A stretch of 64,000 nt of DNA from Schleiferiaceae bacterium (lineage in GTDB: Bacteria > Bacteroidota > Bacteroidia > Flavobacteriales > Schleiferiaceae). The stretch's first letter is position 1. The number at the start of each line of letters is the position of its first letter. The position numbers and the translations under genes were made by a program. The notes below the pieces were generated by a model that saw nothing but the letters and a program-made list of their open reading frames with translations, was not told the origin of the DNA and made no database searches. Of the stretch, positions 51,214-61,816 are shown in pieces. Location: NCBI GenBank assembly GCA_029254375.1, contig JAQWXR010000001.1, positions 1 to 64,000 on the forward strand. The letters run 5' to 3'.

Positions 51214-53007
51214 CTAGCTATTCATGGAGATTAAGAATTCCTCATTGTTAAGGGTCTTGCTCATCCGGTCATGCATGAATTCCATTGCTTCCACGGGCGT
51301 CATGTCGGCCAAGTGGCGGCGTAGGATATACATCCGGCTTAATATTTCCTTCGGGAGGAGTAGATCTTCCTTGCGCGTGCCTGAAGACATTAGATCCAAA
51401 GCTGGCCATACCCTGCGGTTTGCGATCTTTCGATCCAATTGCATCTCCATGTTTCCAGTCCCTTTGAATTCCTCAAAAATAACCTCGTCCATTTTGGATC
51501 CCGTATCAATTAATGCGGTAGCCAAGATGGTTAGTGACCCTCCGTTTTCAATATTACGCGCGGCTCCAAAGAAACGCTTTGGGCGGTGCAAGGCGTTGGC
51601 ATCGACACCACCGGATAAAACCTTGCCAGACGCAGGGCTAACGGTGTTGTAGGCTCTTGCCAAACGCGTGATGGAATCCAAAAGGATGATCACGTCGTGG
51701 CCGCATTCGACGAGGCGCTTGGCCTTTTCTAATACGATGTTGGCGACGCGAACATGTCGTTCTGCTGGCTCATCGAAGGTGGAGGCGACTACTTCGGCAT
51801 TCACGCTCCGAGCCATGTCAGTGACTTCCTCAGGACGCTCATCGACCAAGAGAATAATCATGTATGCTTCGGGGTGATTGGCGGCGATGGCGTTGGCCAC
51901 TTCCTTGAGTAAGGTGGTCTTACCCGTTTTGGGCTGGGCCACAATCAAACCTCTTTGACCTTTTCCAATGGGGGAAAATAAATCAATCACCCGAGTGGAT
52001 AGCGTGCTACGGCGCCCAGTTAAATTGAATTTCTCTTCTGGAAAAAGGGGAGTTAGGTGTTCAAAGCTGACACGATCACGGATAAAATCTGGCTCGCGAC
52101 CGTTGATGCTAATGACTTTGGTTAATGGGAAGAACTTCTCACCTTCTCGTGGAGGGCGAACTTCGCCACGAACAGTATCGCCAGTCTTTAGGCCAAATTG
52201 CTTGACTTGTTGGACCGAGATATAGACATCATCTGGAGAGTTGAGATAGTTGTAATCTGAAGAACGTAAAAAAGCGAAATTATCAGGCATCATTTCAACC
52301 ACGCCTTCCGTGGGAATGATCCCTTCAAATTCGTAATTACGGCGATCCGGACGATCATTGCGATCTTGGCGCTCCCCGCGTTCTTGACGCTCCCCGCGTT
52401 CTTGACGCTCTGGTTGAGGCCCGCGTTCAGGGCGATCTTGACGCTCCCCACGATCTTGGCGCTCCCCACGTTCAGGGCGAGGCCCGCGTTCTGCGCGTTC
52501 AGGGCGATCCCCACGATCTTGGCGCTCCCCACGATCTTGACGCTCCGCGCGTTCAGGTCGAGGCCCGCGATCTTGACGTTCCCCGCGATCCGGGCGGTCA
52601 TTGCGCTCCCCGCGCTCTGGCCTTGATCCGCGTTCCTGACTCTCGCCGCGTTCTGGGTGCTCACCGCGATCATTTCTAGGCAAACGCTCTGGGCGTTCGG
52701 AACGGACTTGAATTCCTTTGTTTTTCTCAGAATTGAGCTCATTGGAGTTGACCTCCACATCACTCATTTCAGAGGGCTGATTTTTGCGAGCAGGGCGGCC
52801 CCGACGTCGTTCGATCGGAGAAGATTCCGAATCGTTCGATGCGTTTGAAGGTGCTTCAAGGTCTACGCCAACCTTAGATCCGATGGCTGAAATCGCCTCT
52901 ATAAGTTCTGGTTTGCGCAAATAACGCGCTTTAGGTACGCCAAGGGCTTCGCCCATAGCTTTGAGTTCGGGGAGTTTTAATTCCGTGATATTCGGGGAAT
53001 TAGCCAT
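51214..53007 (-). CDS. rho: Transcription termination factor Rho with an Arg/Glu/Asp-rich N-terminal insert
   Basis: [55 protein letters not shown]; 597 aa. Confidence 0.96.
52340..52700 (-). repeat. rho: Degenerate in-frame repeats encoding [16 protein letters not shown]-type low-complexity region in rho
   Basis: Many near-identical copies of cgatcttggcgctcccc-type units; protein (R/E/D/Q/G/P)-only for over 100 residues. Confidence 0.9.
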
Positions 53008-56768: not shown

Positions 56769-57323
56769 TCAGACCGGTAAGAGAGAATTCGGATCCTGAA
56801 TTTGGACCGCAGGGGCATAGGTGGCGACCAGGGCCTGGAATTCCTGCAGTCGAGTAATTTGAACGGCTACTATTCGGCCTTCTTGAAGTTCGAAAAACGC
56901 ATAGGTCCCTTCGTCAAAAGCGTAGGCGTGCACGCGTTTATACGGTCCAAAACTTCCAATCCTAAGTCCCCAGCCGCCAAAATCTCCAATGGGGCTGGCC
57001 TTGGCTAGGTAAATGGCCTGAACAGCCTCCCACGAACGCCATTTCCAGCGCCAAACAAAAGGACGGTAAATCACGCCAATGCCCCGTGCACTGATCCGCA
57101 AGCGGCACCAGGACATAATCATGGCGGTAACTCCAGCCTCGAGCGCAATAACACTAAGCAAGACCCAGAACATGGTTGGGCCCTCTTCGGAAGGTCGGCT
57201 TGCAAAGAAGGCAGCTAAATCTGCCCAGCCCACGGAAATAATGATGGTCAAGGTCGTGGTCAGGCTAATGCCCAAGACGATAAGAAAGACGGGAGGGATG
57301 CGGAATTGGTCGCGGTATTCCAT
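56769..57323 (-). CDS. Hypothetical membrane protein, PH-like domain (two TM helices)
   Basis: Two TM segments then RLRISARGIGVIYRPFVWRWKWRSWEAVQAIYLAKASPIG..WGLRIG typical of bacterial PH-like proteins. Confidence 0.6.
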   Translation of the reverse strand: MEYRDQFRIPPVFLIVLGISLTTTLTIIISVGWADLAAFFASRPSEEGPTMFWVLLSVIALEAGVTAMIMSWCRLRISARGIGVIYRPFVWRWKWRSWEAVQAIYLAKASPIGDFGGWGLRIGSFGPYKRVHAYAFDEGTYAFFELQEGRIVAVQITRLQEFQALVATYAPAVQIQDPNSLLPV

Positions 57324-57360: not shown

Positions 57361-57374
57361 GATGTTTGAACATC
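57361..57374. promoter_or_regulatory. Palindrome GATGTTTGAACATC, candidate operator 1
   Basis: 6-bp inverted arms GATGTT/AACATC; contains TTTG (57365-57368) in the -33 position. Confidence 0.6.
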
Positions 57375-57386
57375 TTTTGAGTGCTG

Positions 57387-57394
57387 TACATTTG
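57387..57394 (+). promoter_or_regulatory. -7 element TACATTTG of YceI gene
   Basis: Exact TAnnTTTG, 18 nt after TTTG 57365-57368. Confidence 0.6.
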
Positions 57395-57409
57395 CACACG
57401 TTACTTAAT

Positions 57410-57423
57410 AATGTTTAAACATC
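57410..57423. promoter_or_regulatory. Palindrome AATGTTTAAACATC, candidate operator 2
   Basis: Contains perfect 12-bp palindrome ATGTTTAAACAT; 12/14 identical to 57361-57374. Confidence 0.6.
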
Positions 57424-57431
57424 AAACTTAA

Positions 57432-58073
57432 ATGAAAAAACTTCTTTCTCTTTCTGCTGCAGCGCTTTTGGCTGTGGCCTGTGGCCAAGGCACTTTGGAT
57501 GCTACAGATGCAAAAGATGCTGCCCAAGGCGGCCAAACGTTGACCGTTGACGCGGCGGCTTCTAGCGTTGAATGGTACGGTCACAAGCCCTTCGCAGAGA
57601 GCTACGGCCACGCGGGTACCTTGAACATCACGGAAGGTTCCGTGGGTCTTGAGAACGGTGCCTTGGTGTCGGGCAGCTTTACGCTGGACATGAACACCAT
57701 CATGTGCACGGACGAAGCCCTTCCACAGGAGAAAAAAGACTACTTAGTCGGTCACTTAAAAAGCGCAGAATTCTTTGCTGTGGACAGCTTTGCCGTTGCC
57801 ACATTTGAAATCACGGGCGTAGATGCTCAAGAGGGTGAAAATAATTCTTTGGTTTCTGGCAATTTGACCATGCGAGGTGTGACCAACAACATCCAGTTCC
57901 CTGCCCATGTGACGGTGGTGGATTCTGTTGTTACATTGACCGCTCCCCAGTTCAATATTGACCGCAAGCAGTGGGGCGTCATGTATTCCTCCACGAGCAT
58001 TGTGGATTTAGCAAAAGATAACTTGATTTCCGACGATTTAGGTATCAAGTTTACCGTTTCTGCTAAGCTTTAA
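57432..58073 (+). CDS. YceI-family lipoprotein
   Basis: Lipobox LAVACG; LTVDAAASSVEWYGHKPFAESYGHAGTLNITEGSVGLENGALVSGSFTLDMNTI; NLTMRGVTNNIQFPAHV. Confidence 0.9.
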   Translation: MKKLLSLSAAALLAVACGQGTLDATDAKDAAQGGQTLTVDAAASSVEWYGHKPFAESYGHAGTLNITEGSVGLENGALVSGSFTLDMNTIMCTDEALPQEKKDYLVGHLKSAEFFAVDSFAVATFEITGVDAQEGENNSLVSGNLTMRGVTNNIQFPAHVTVVDSVVTLTAPQFNIDRKQWGVMYSSTSIVDLAKDNLISDDLGIKFTVSAKL

Positions 58074-58093: not shown

Positions 58094-58125
58094 TGAAAGC
58101 CTCGGCGAAAGCCGGGGCTTTTTTT
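58094..58125 (+). terminator. Rho-independent terminator with GAAA tetraloop
   Basis: AAAGCCTCGGC-GAAA-GCCGGGGCTTTTTTT. Confidence 0.9.
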
Positions 58126-60774: not shown

Positions 60775-61320
60775 ATGAAACGTATTTTGATTCCTGCCTT
60801 AGCCCTCTTCGCGGCCTTTACCCGTCCAAGTGAATCTCCGGTGGAGACGATGAGTTTTGACTATTTCGGAGACAGCATCCAAGTAGCGGACACCACTAAT
60901 CTGAATGATCTTCTGGCTCAATTGGGTTCAGGCACTGACTCGCTCTACGCGACGTTTGCGGCACCGATTTCAGCGGTGTGTCAGGTAAAGGGCTGCTGGA
61001 TGCAGTTGGACCTGGGCAATGGAGAAGAGGCGCTGGTGCGTTTCAAAGATTACGGCTTCTTTGTGCCTATGGATGCAAGCTCAGAAAGGGCCATCATCAC
61101 AGGAAGCTTGACAGTGGACACCTTGAGTGTCGAATGGTTGCGTCACCAAGCCGAAGATGCGGGCAAATCTGACTCGGCTATTGCGGCGATTACTGAGCCA
61201 AAAATCTCCTATGCCGTTTTGGCAACGGGTGTAGCACTCCCTCAAAAAGTCCGTGAAATGGCGGAAGAAGAGGAGGCACACGATCATGAAGGCCACGATC
61301 ACGATGGCCATGAGCATTAA
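60775..61320 (+). CDS. DUF4920-like protein with His/Asp-rich C-terminal tail
   Basis: FAAPISAVCQVKGCWMQLDLGNGEEALVRFKDYGFFVPMDA; tail EEEEAHDHEGHDHDGHEH. Confidence 0.78.
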   Translation: MKRILIPALALFAAFTRPSESPVETMSFDYFGDSIQVADTTNLNDLLAQLGSGTDSLYATFAAPISAVCQVKGCWMQLDLGNGEEALVRFKDYGFFVPMDASSERAIITGSLTVDTLSVEWLRHQAEDAGKSDSAIAAITEPKISYAVLATGVALPQKVREMAEEEEAHDHEGHDHDGHEH

Positions 61321-61816
61321 ACATCAGACCCGAAAGGGTCTTTTGTTTTTGACGGCATCTCTTGGCATGCTGAGCCTGTCCGTGCTCAGTTGTAACGCTC
61401 CAGAAGCAACGCCTGAACAAAAGCCTGCGGATCAACCTAGTCGTCGAACGGGGATGTATGAAGCCAGTCCTTTAGCGGTAGCTATGCGTAGCATGGCGAC
61501 GGATATGGAGTCACTCCGGGCAAAAGCAGATGATGGCTCCTTGCAAATCGAAGAGGTAGATGCCATGATTTTGGCGCATGCCGATATGAAAACGGCTCAG
61601 GCCACCAAGCCATCAGATATCAAGGCTAGTTATACAGGCTATGCCGAAGCATATCTCCTCCAATTGGAAGAACTCAAGGAACAAATGCGTGCGAATGCTA
61701 GCAGGGAAGAGCGACTGGAGGCGTTTAATGCTGCCTTGACTACCTGTGTGGCCTGCCACCAAGAACATTGTCCTGGTCCTATTTCACGCATTGAAAAAAT
61801 TAAGGTTCAGCCATAA
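61310..61816 (+). CDS. Cytochrome c-like lipoprotein
   Basis: Lipobox SVLSC; CVACHQEHC near C-terminus; start at ATG 61310 overlapping the DUF4920-like stop. Confidence 0.62.
   Translation: MSIKHQTRKGLLFLTASLGMLSLSVLSCNAPEATPEQKPADQPSRRTGMYEASPLAVAMRSMATDMESLRAKADDGSLQIEEVDAMILAHADMKTAQATKPSDIKASYTGYAEAYLLQLEELKEQMRANASREERLEAFNAALTTCVACHQEHCPGPISRIEKIKVQP

Follow-up and report, generated by a model that had tools for sequence, protein, structure and literature searches.

The promoter of a lipoprotein-type yceI gene in a Schleiferiaceae bacterium is bracketed by two similar palindromes, O1 and O2. Judged across related genomes these are real, conserved sites, and with high probability they are the two operators of a homodimeric MarR-family repressor that is encoded elsewhere in the genome and would release yceI under a redox-type signal. 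The window, meaning the whole stretch of 64,000 nucleotides that was analysed, holds the following features at this promoter.

57361..57374, no strand assigned: predicted upstream operator O1, GATGTTTGAACATC, at about -38 to -25 (sequence and sister genomes)
57365..57368, plus strand: possible, weak -33 element TTTG within O1 (sequence)
57387..57394, plus strand: -7 promoter element TACATTTG, which fits TAHHTTTG; the clade form YAHHTTTG is conserved
57399, plus strand: putative transcription start (+1), from placement of the -7 element at -12 to -5
57410..57423, no strand assigned: predicted downstream operator O2, AATGTTTAAACATC, at about +12 to +25 (sequence and sister genomes)
57432..58073, plus strand: yceI, 213 aa, with a lipoprotein signal (LAVAC); open reading frame, PF04264 at 83.7 bits (cut-off 23.7)
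58098..58125, plus strand: likely intrinsic terminator of yceI, a hairpin followed by a T run (sequence)
56769..57323, minus strand: divergent gene of no assigned function; open reading frame, Pfam without match

In Flavobacterium johnsoniae, the element TAHHTTTG was mapped across -12 to -5 (PMC6847099), and the same placement here puts +1 at 57399, O1 at -38 to -25 and O2 at +12 to +25. When the sequence was re-read, both palindromes, the -7 element and the ATG at 57432 were found exactly where the sequence-only reading had located them, and its figures of 12/14 identity between O1 and O2 and 49 bp from start to start were also correct. The TTTG that it had assigned to the -33 position is present within O1, but the assignment itself is weak, since TTTG becomes TTTA in two relatives (G043 and G039). 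The protein belongs to the YceI family by its Pfam score, and a PDB sequence search returned 1wub as the sole match (E 0.0003). The divergent gene (start at 57323) had been described as PH-like and as possibly sharing the control; the Pfam search gave no match to it, and neither remark found support. Elsewhere in the window, the Rho factor (51214-53007, minus strand) contains a long repetitive stretch rich in arginine, glutamate and aspartate near the N terminus, and a small secreted protein (61253-61816, plus strand), which carries the motif CVACH and may be a c-type cytochrome, had no match in Pfam. A sequence labelled as a Chryseobacterium gleum MAG (L030, CAMCHP010000004.1) encodes a YceI 49% identical to that of the window; the label may be wrong.

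The bacterium's own genome (1.70 Mb, 53 contigs, 88.5% complete) was searched for further copies of the motif. The exact 12-mer ATGTTTNAACAT occurs at O1 and O2 only. With one mismatch allowed, 30 copies were counted vs 21 for a reversed-pattern control; enrichment so near the control level was rejected, and therefore the exact sites alone were trusted. The pattern TGTTTRAACA is found at 4 places, namely O1, O2, the start of a glutathione peroxidase gene and one intergenic position, with no copy inside a gene body, so that the genome-wide search suggested earlier revealed no frequent occurrence of exact copies in genes. Within the window, O1 and O2 are the sole pair of 14-mers with at least 6/7 palindromic pairs that are spaced by 20-80 bp and agree at 12/14 positions or more. 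Because one of 60 dinucleotide-shuffled versions of the window also contained a comparable pair, the pair is suggestive by itself, short of decisive.

Comparison of orthologous promoters carries the argument further. YceI orthologues are present in 66 of the 88 genomes of the family, and 64 upstream regions were usable. In 49 of these 64 promoters, TGTTnnAACA lies no more than 130 bp from the start; 0.0015 per promoter, or about 0.1 over all 64, would be expected, and the remainder of the same yceI loci contains 3 copies in 254 kb. It is on account of this frequency that O1 and O2 are taken as real sites. In every genus with a yceI site, the position is either over -33 (genera 5, 14, 18 and 19) or just past the -7 element (genera 3, 4, 7, 9, 10, 13 and 15). 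Genera 16 and 17 were not counted as losses of the site, TGTAnnTACA being present there instead. Among six sister genomes with the same lipoprotein gene, both palindromes are intact in five, and O1 has decayed in G048; with the window included, two palindromes are present in 6 of 7 genomes of the genus. The centres of O1 and O2 are 47-49 bp apart in the window's clade. When the sister promoters are aligned, the conserved blocks are the palindromes, the -7 element and the ATG, and the spacer is not conserved. The proposed check against orthologous YceI promoters thus came out in favour of conservation.

Two alternatives lose almost all their weight at this point. That two AT-rich palindromes might be alike by chance draws on the single comparable pair among the 60 shuffles, and it is refuted because the sites are conserved across the family at set places in the promoter and twin sites are confined to yceI, leaving it extremely improbable. 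The location of O2 inside the predicted leader would also suit an RNA element, with O1 as mere promoter sequence. However, O1 has the same sequence though untranscribed, other genera have a single site at -33, the same palindrome recurs at unrelated promoters, and the stem formed by TGTTTAAACA, a part of O2 retained in all six sister genomes, is limited to three pairs; this explanation is scarcely credible.

The twin layout itself is narrowly distributed. When 398 genomes of the order were searched for TGTTTRAACA in two copies 28-48 bp apart, such pairs turned up in the bacterium's own genus only and before yceI genes only, apart from G353, where the pattern is a tandem-repeat array and was rejected as an operator pair. 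Across the genus the copies are 45-49 bp apart. In three genomes of the same genus in which the lipoprotein yceI was not found (G049, G052 and G055), twins spaced by 45-46 bp precede a different yceI without signal peptide. As these promoters place twins before a second type of yceI, the dual operator tracks YceI function and not one particular gene.

The sequence-only reading had noted that no regulator is evident in the window, which is correct; a candidate is encoded elsewhere in the genome. This is a MarR protein of 151 aa (G000:C4:29358-29810; L098:1354-1809) directly behind frr in pyrH-frr, and it is the only protein of the genome above the MarR_2 cut-off, with 38.9 bits for PF12802 (cut-off 27) and 37.5 bits for PF01047 (cut-off 24.6). 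Its PDB matches are MarR proteins, in agreement with winged-helix membership. Other MarR-like proteins of the genome were rejected: the next ones are DtxR/MntR-like and Lrp-like, and the rest fall below the cut-off. On comparative grounds, this MarR is the likely regulator of O1 and O2. A MarR orthologue is absent from genus 6 (five genomes) and from G021, G033, G037 and G071, and all of these are without the yceI palindrome. The site is present and MarR was not found in G048, G027 and G069, which are incomplete or fragmented assemblies. Three genomes have MarR and another palindrome at yceI, G001 and G004 have MarR and yceI sites with 9/10 matches, none exact, and G082, with MarR and no yceI site, is a true exception. 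The co-distribution of MarR and site gives a Fisher value of 2.9e-5, uncorrected for descent, with about four independent losses behind the co-loss.

TGTTnnAACA also lies upstream of marR itself in at least 8 genera (2, 3, 4, 7, 14, 15, 18 and 19); in the bacterium's own genus, marR is located in the frr operon and lacks such a site. In Flavobacteriaceae, marR is upstream of yceI in one operon at 10 of 20 loci, either adjacent or separated by a nitroreductase-like gene, and TTGTATATACAA or a close variant is found at the marR promoter of these loci. Among 30 loci of lipoprotein-type yceI outside the family, none adjoins this marR, and the one palindrome match is within a gene start. MarR orthologues are also kept in three genomes of the same genus with few or no TGTTTRAACA sites (G041, G045 and G050); the operator may be a different one there, or the regulon may have disappeared. 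The MarR of these genomes (L119-L121, L208-L210 and L225-L226) is diverged, with EDGR in the wing, and no site was seen at pirin or FMN reductase.

Within the MarR proteins, an SxxxRxxxx stretch, which we take to be the recognition helix, has the form N..K in genera 16 and 17 and in Flavobacteriaceae, and D..R in others. The operator TGTAnnTACA accompanies N..K and TGTTnnAACA accompanies D..R: 42 genomes combine D..R with a TGTT site and 13 combine N..K with a TGTA site, and one N..K genome has a TGTT copy in addition to its TGTA site (L309). All N..K proteins are on one side of one branch in the MarR tree (99/99), which indicates one co-change, not many; several independent origins of N..K were rejected on this basis. 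By sequence comparison, helix and operator changed together across Flavobacteriales within one MarR subfamily. These results also bear on the possibility that a different repressor (TetR, HxlR/DUF24, PadR or similar) binds O1 and O2 and tracks MarR by descent only. Co-distribution with MarR does not prove binding; the screen of the genome covered a part of the regulator families. Yet the palindrome stands before marR itself in at least eight genera, it marks the promoter of the Flavobacteriaceae operon that joins marR and yceI, and the operator type follows the recognition helix of MarR, so that another repressor is regarded as unlikely.

Further putative targets were found beyond yceI. Within the genus, the palindrome is also present at promoters of pirin, FMN reductase and a DsbA-like protein. 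The glutathione peroxidase site is common to the bacterium's own genome (G000), G053, G054 and G039, has a variant core in G048, and overlaps both the -7 element and the ATG. The pirin promoter of the own genome (L212; C31:18783-19493) reads TGTGTTTTGATCCG vs TGTGTTTAAACACG in G054 and G048, and by this comparison is a decayed site. The same MarR seems to control glutathione peroxidase here as well, and further redox genes in the sister species; this list of targets suggests stress of a redox, quinone or electrophile type. An activator in place of a repressor would agree with the one site upstream of the -7 element, but in most genera the single site per promoter overlaps or follows the transcription start, and the glutathione peroxidase site covers the -7 element and ATG, a polymerase-blocking position. 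Activation is accordingly considered very unlikely.

The repressed promoter with two operators, first proposed from the window, therefore stands as the best reading and is supported by conserved sites on both sides of the -7 element. From the sites, their conservation and promoter positions, the co-distribution with MarR and the same sites at marR in relatives, we infer binding, repression, cooperation between O1 and O2 and a ligand. A MarR homodimer at O1 would cover the -33 region and one at O2 would sit just past the transcription start, and occupation of either or both operators would silence yceI. A small molecule would then free the repressor, and YceI would be made after release. The MarR of this genome contains 0 cysteines, and hence no redox-active cysteine of the thiol-switch type of OhrR and QsrR; a ligand, not a thiol switch, is therefore expected. 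What the ligand might be is guessed from the targets; the signal is probably tied to quinone, electrophile or peroxide stress, because the genes that appear co-regulated are those of glutathione peroxidase, pirin, FMN reductase and the DsbA-like protein. Members of the YceI family are known to bind isoprenoid lipids.

The fourth TGTTTRAACA copy of the genome (C36:25357) recurs at this locus in four other genomes (G043, G048, G053, G054), with G057-G059 as probable further cases. It is upstream of a block of about 650-700 nt without long open reading frames, between an FAD-oxidase gene and tRNA-Pro/trxB. This block contains one further feature.

L022:727-1390 (own genome, C36, about 24.6-25.25 kb), minus strand: predicted conserved structured RNA, also in L165, L166, L174, L175 and L191

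Pairs with two-sided changes number 65 vs 12.2 (sd 2.9) in column shuffles, and 90 vs 20.6 (sd 3.3) with a sixth genome added. The single-sequence z-score is -6.75, and the block ends in a terminator-like hairpin with a T run. Rfam gave no match beyond chance to this RNA of about 700 nt, and none was found in the phage and plasmid records searched. It is a candidate new large ncRNA family. MarR control of the RNA is a lead, not a result, since about 110 bp separate the palindrome from the first helix downstream of it. A more inclusive proposal joins a so far undescribed MarR regulon of Bacteroidota that would respond to isoprenoid-quinone or electrophile stress, the co-change of TGTT/AACA vs TGTA/TACA with D..R vs N..K, a passage from single to dual operator at yceI in one genus, and a MarR-controlled large ncRNA of no known family; as a whole it is advanced tentatively, as a possibility somewhat short of even.

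Systems of this kind are known. In the literature searched, no description was found of this regulon, of the dual operator peculiar to the genus or of the joint change in helix and operator; no paper there joined MarR, YceI and pirin, and none was relevant for MarR with YceI. An uncharacterised MarR of marine Flavobacteriales now has a predicted operator, residues linked to specificity and a list of targets, and YceI, which is widespread and of unclear role, would be placed in a redox- or quinone-type regulon. Furthermore, the natural series of promoters with no site, one near -33, one near +1, or both is a ready system for studying the effect of a second operator.

MarR-family regulons in which a promoter has two or more operators are familiar, as with E. 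coli MarR at marO. The present system resembles them in its winged-helix dimer family (PF12802/PF01047), in palindromic operators over the promoter and in the relatives' own marR gene being among the predicted targets, and differs in that the regulator is unlinked to yceI in this genus, the own-gene site is lost there, and a dual operator is confined to yceI in a single genus. MhqR, QsrR and OhrR govern redox- or quinone-sensing MarR regulons with similar types of target, namely reductases, thiol peroxidase and small redox proteins; to our knowledge, their descriptions do not include YceI and pirin, and the MarR described here, without cysteine, has no thiol switch. The marR-(nitroreductase)-yceI operons of Flavobacteriaceae share the orthologous MarR subfamily, the link to YceI and the promoter palindrome, whereas they combine TTGTATATACAA with N..K and the system here combines TGTTTRAACA with D..R. 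Finally, the 83.7-bit domain match places the protein with the YceI family (PF04264), to which Thermus TT1927b (PDB 1wub) belongs, but in contrast to TT1927b it is a lipoprotein, predicted to be under a dual operator.
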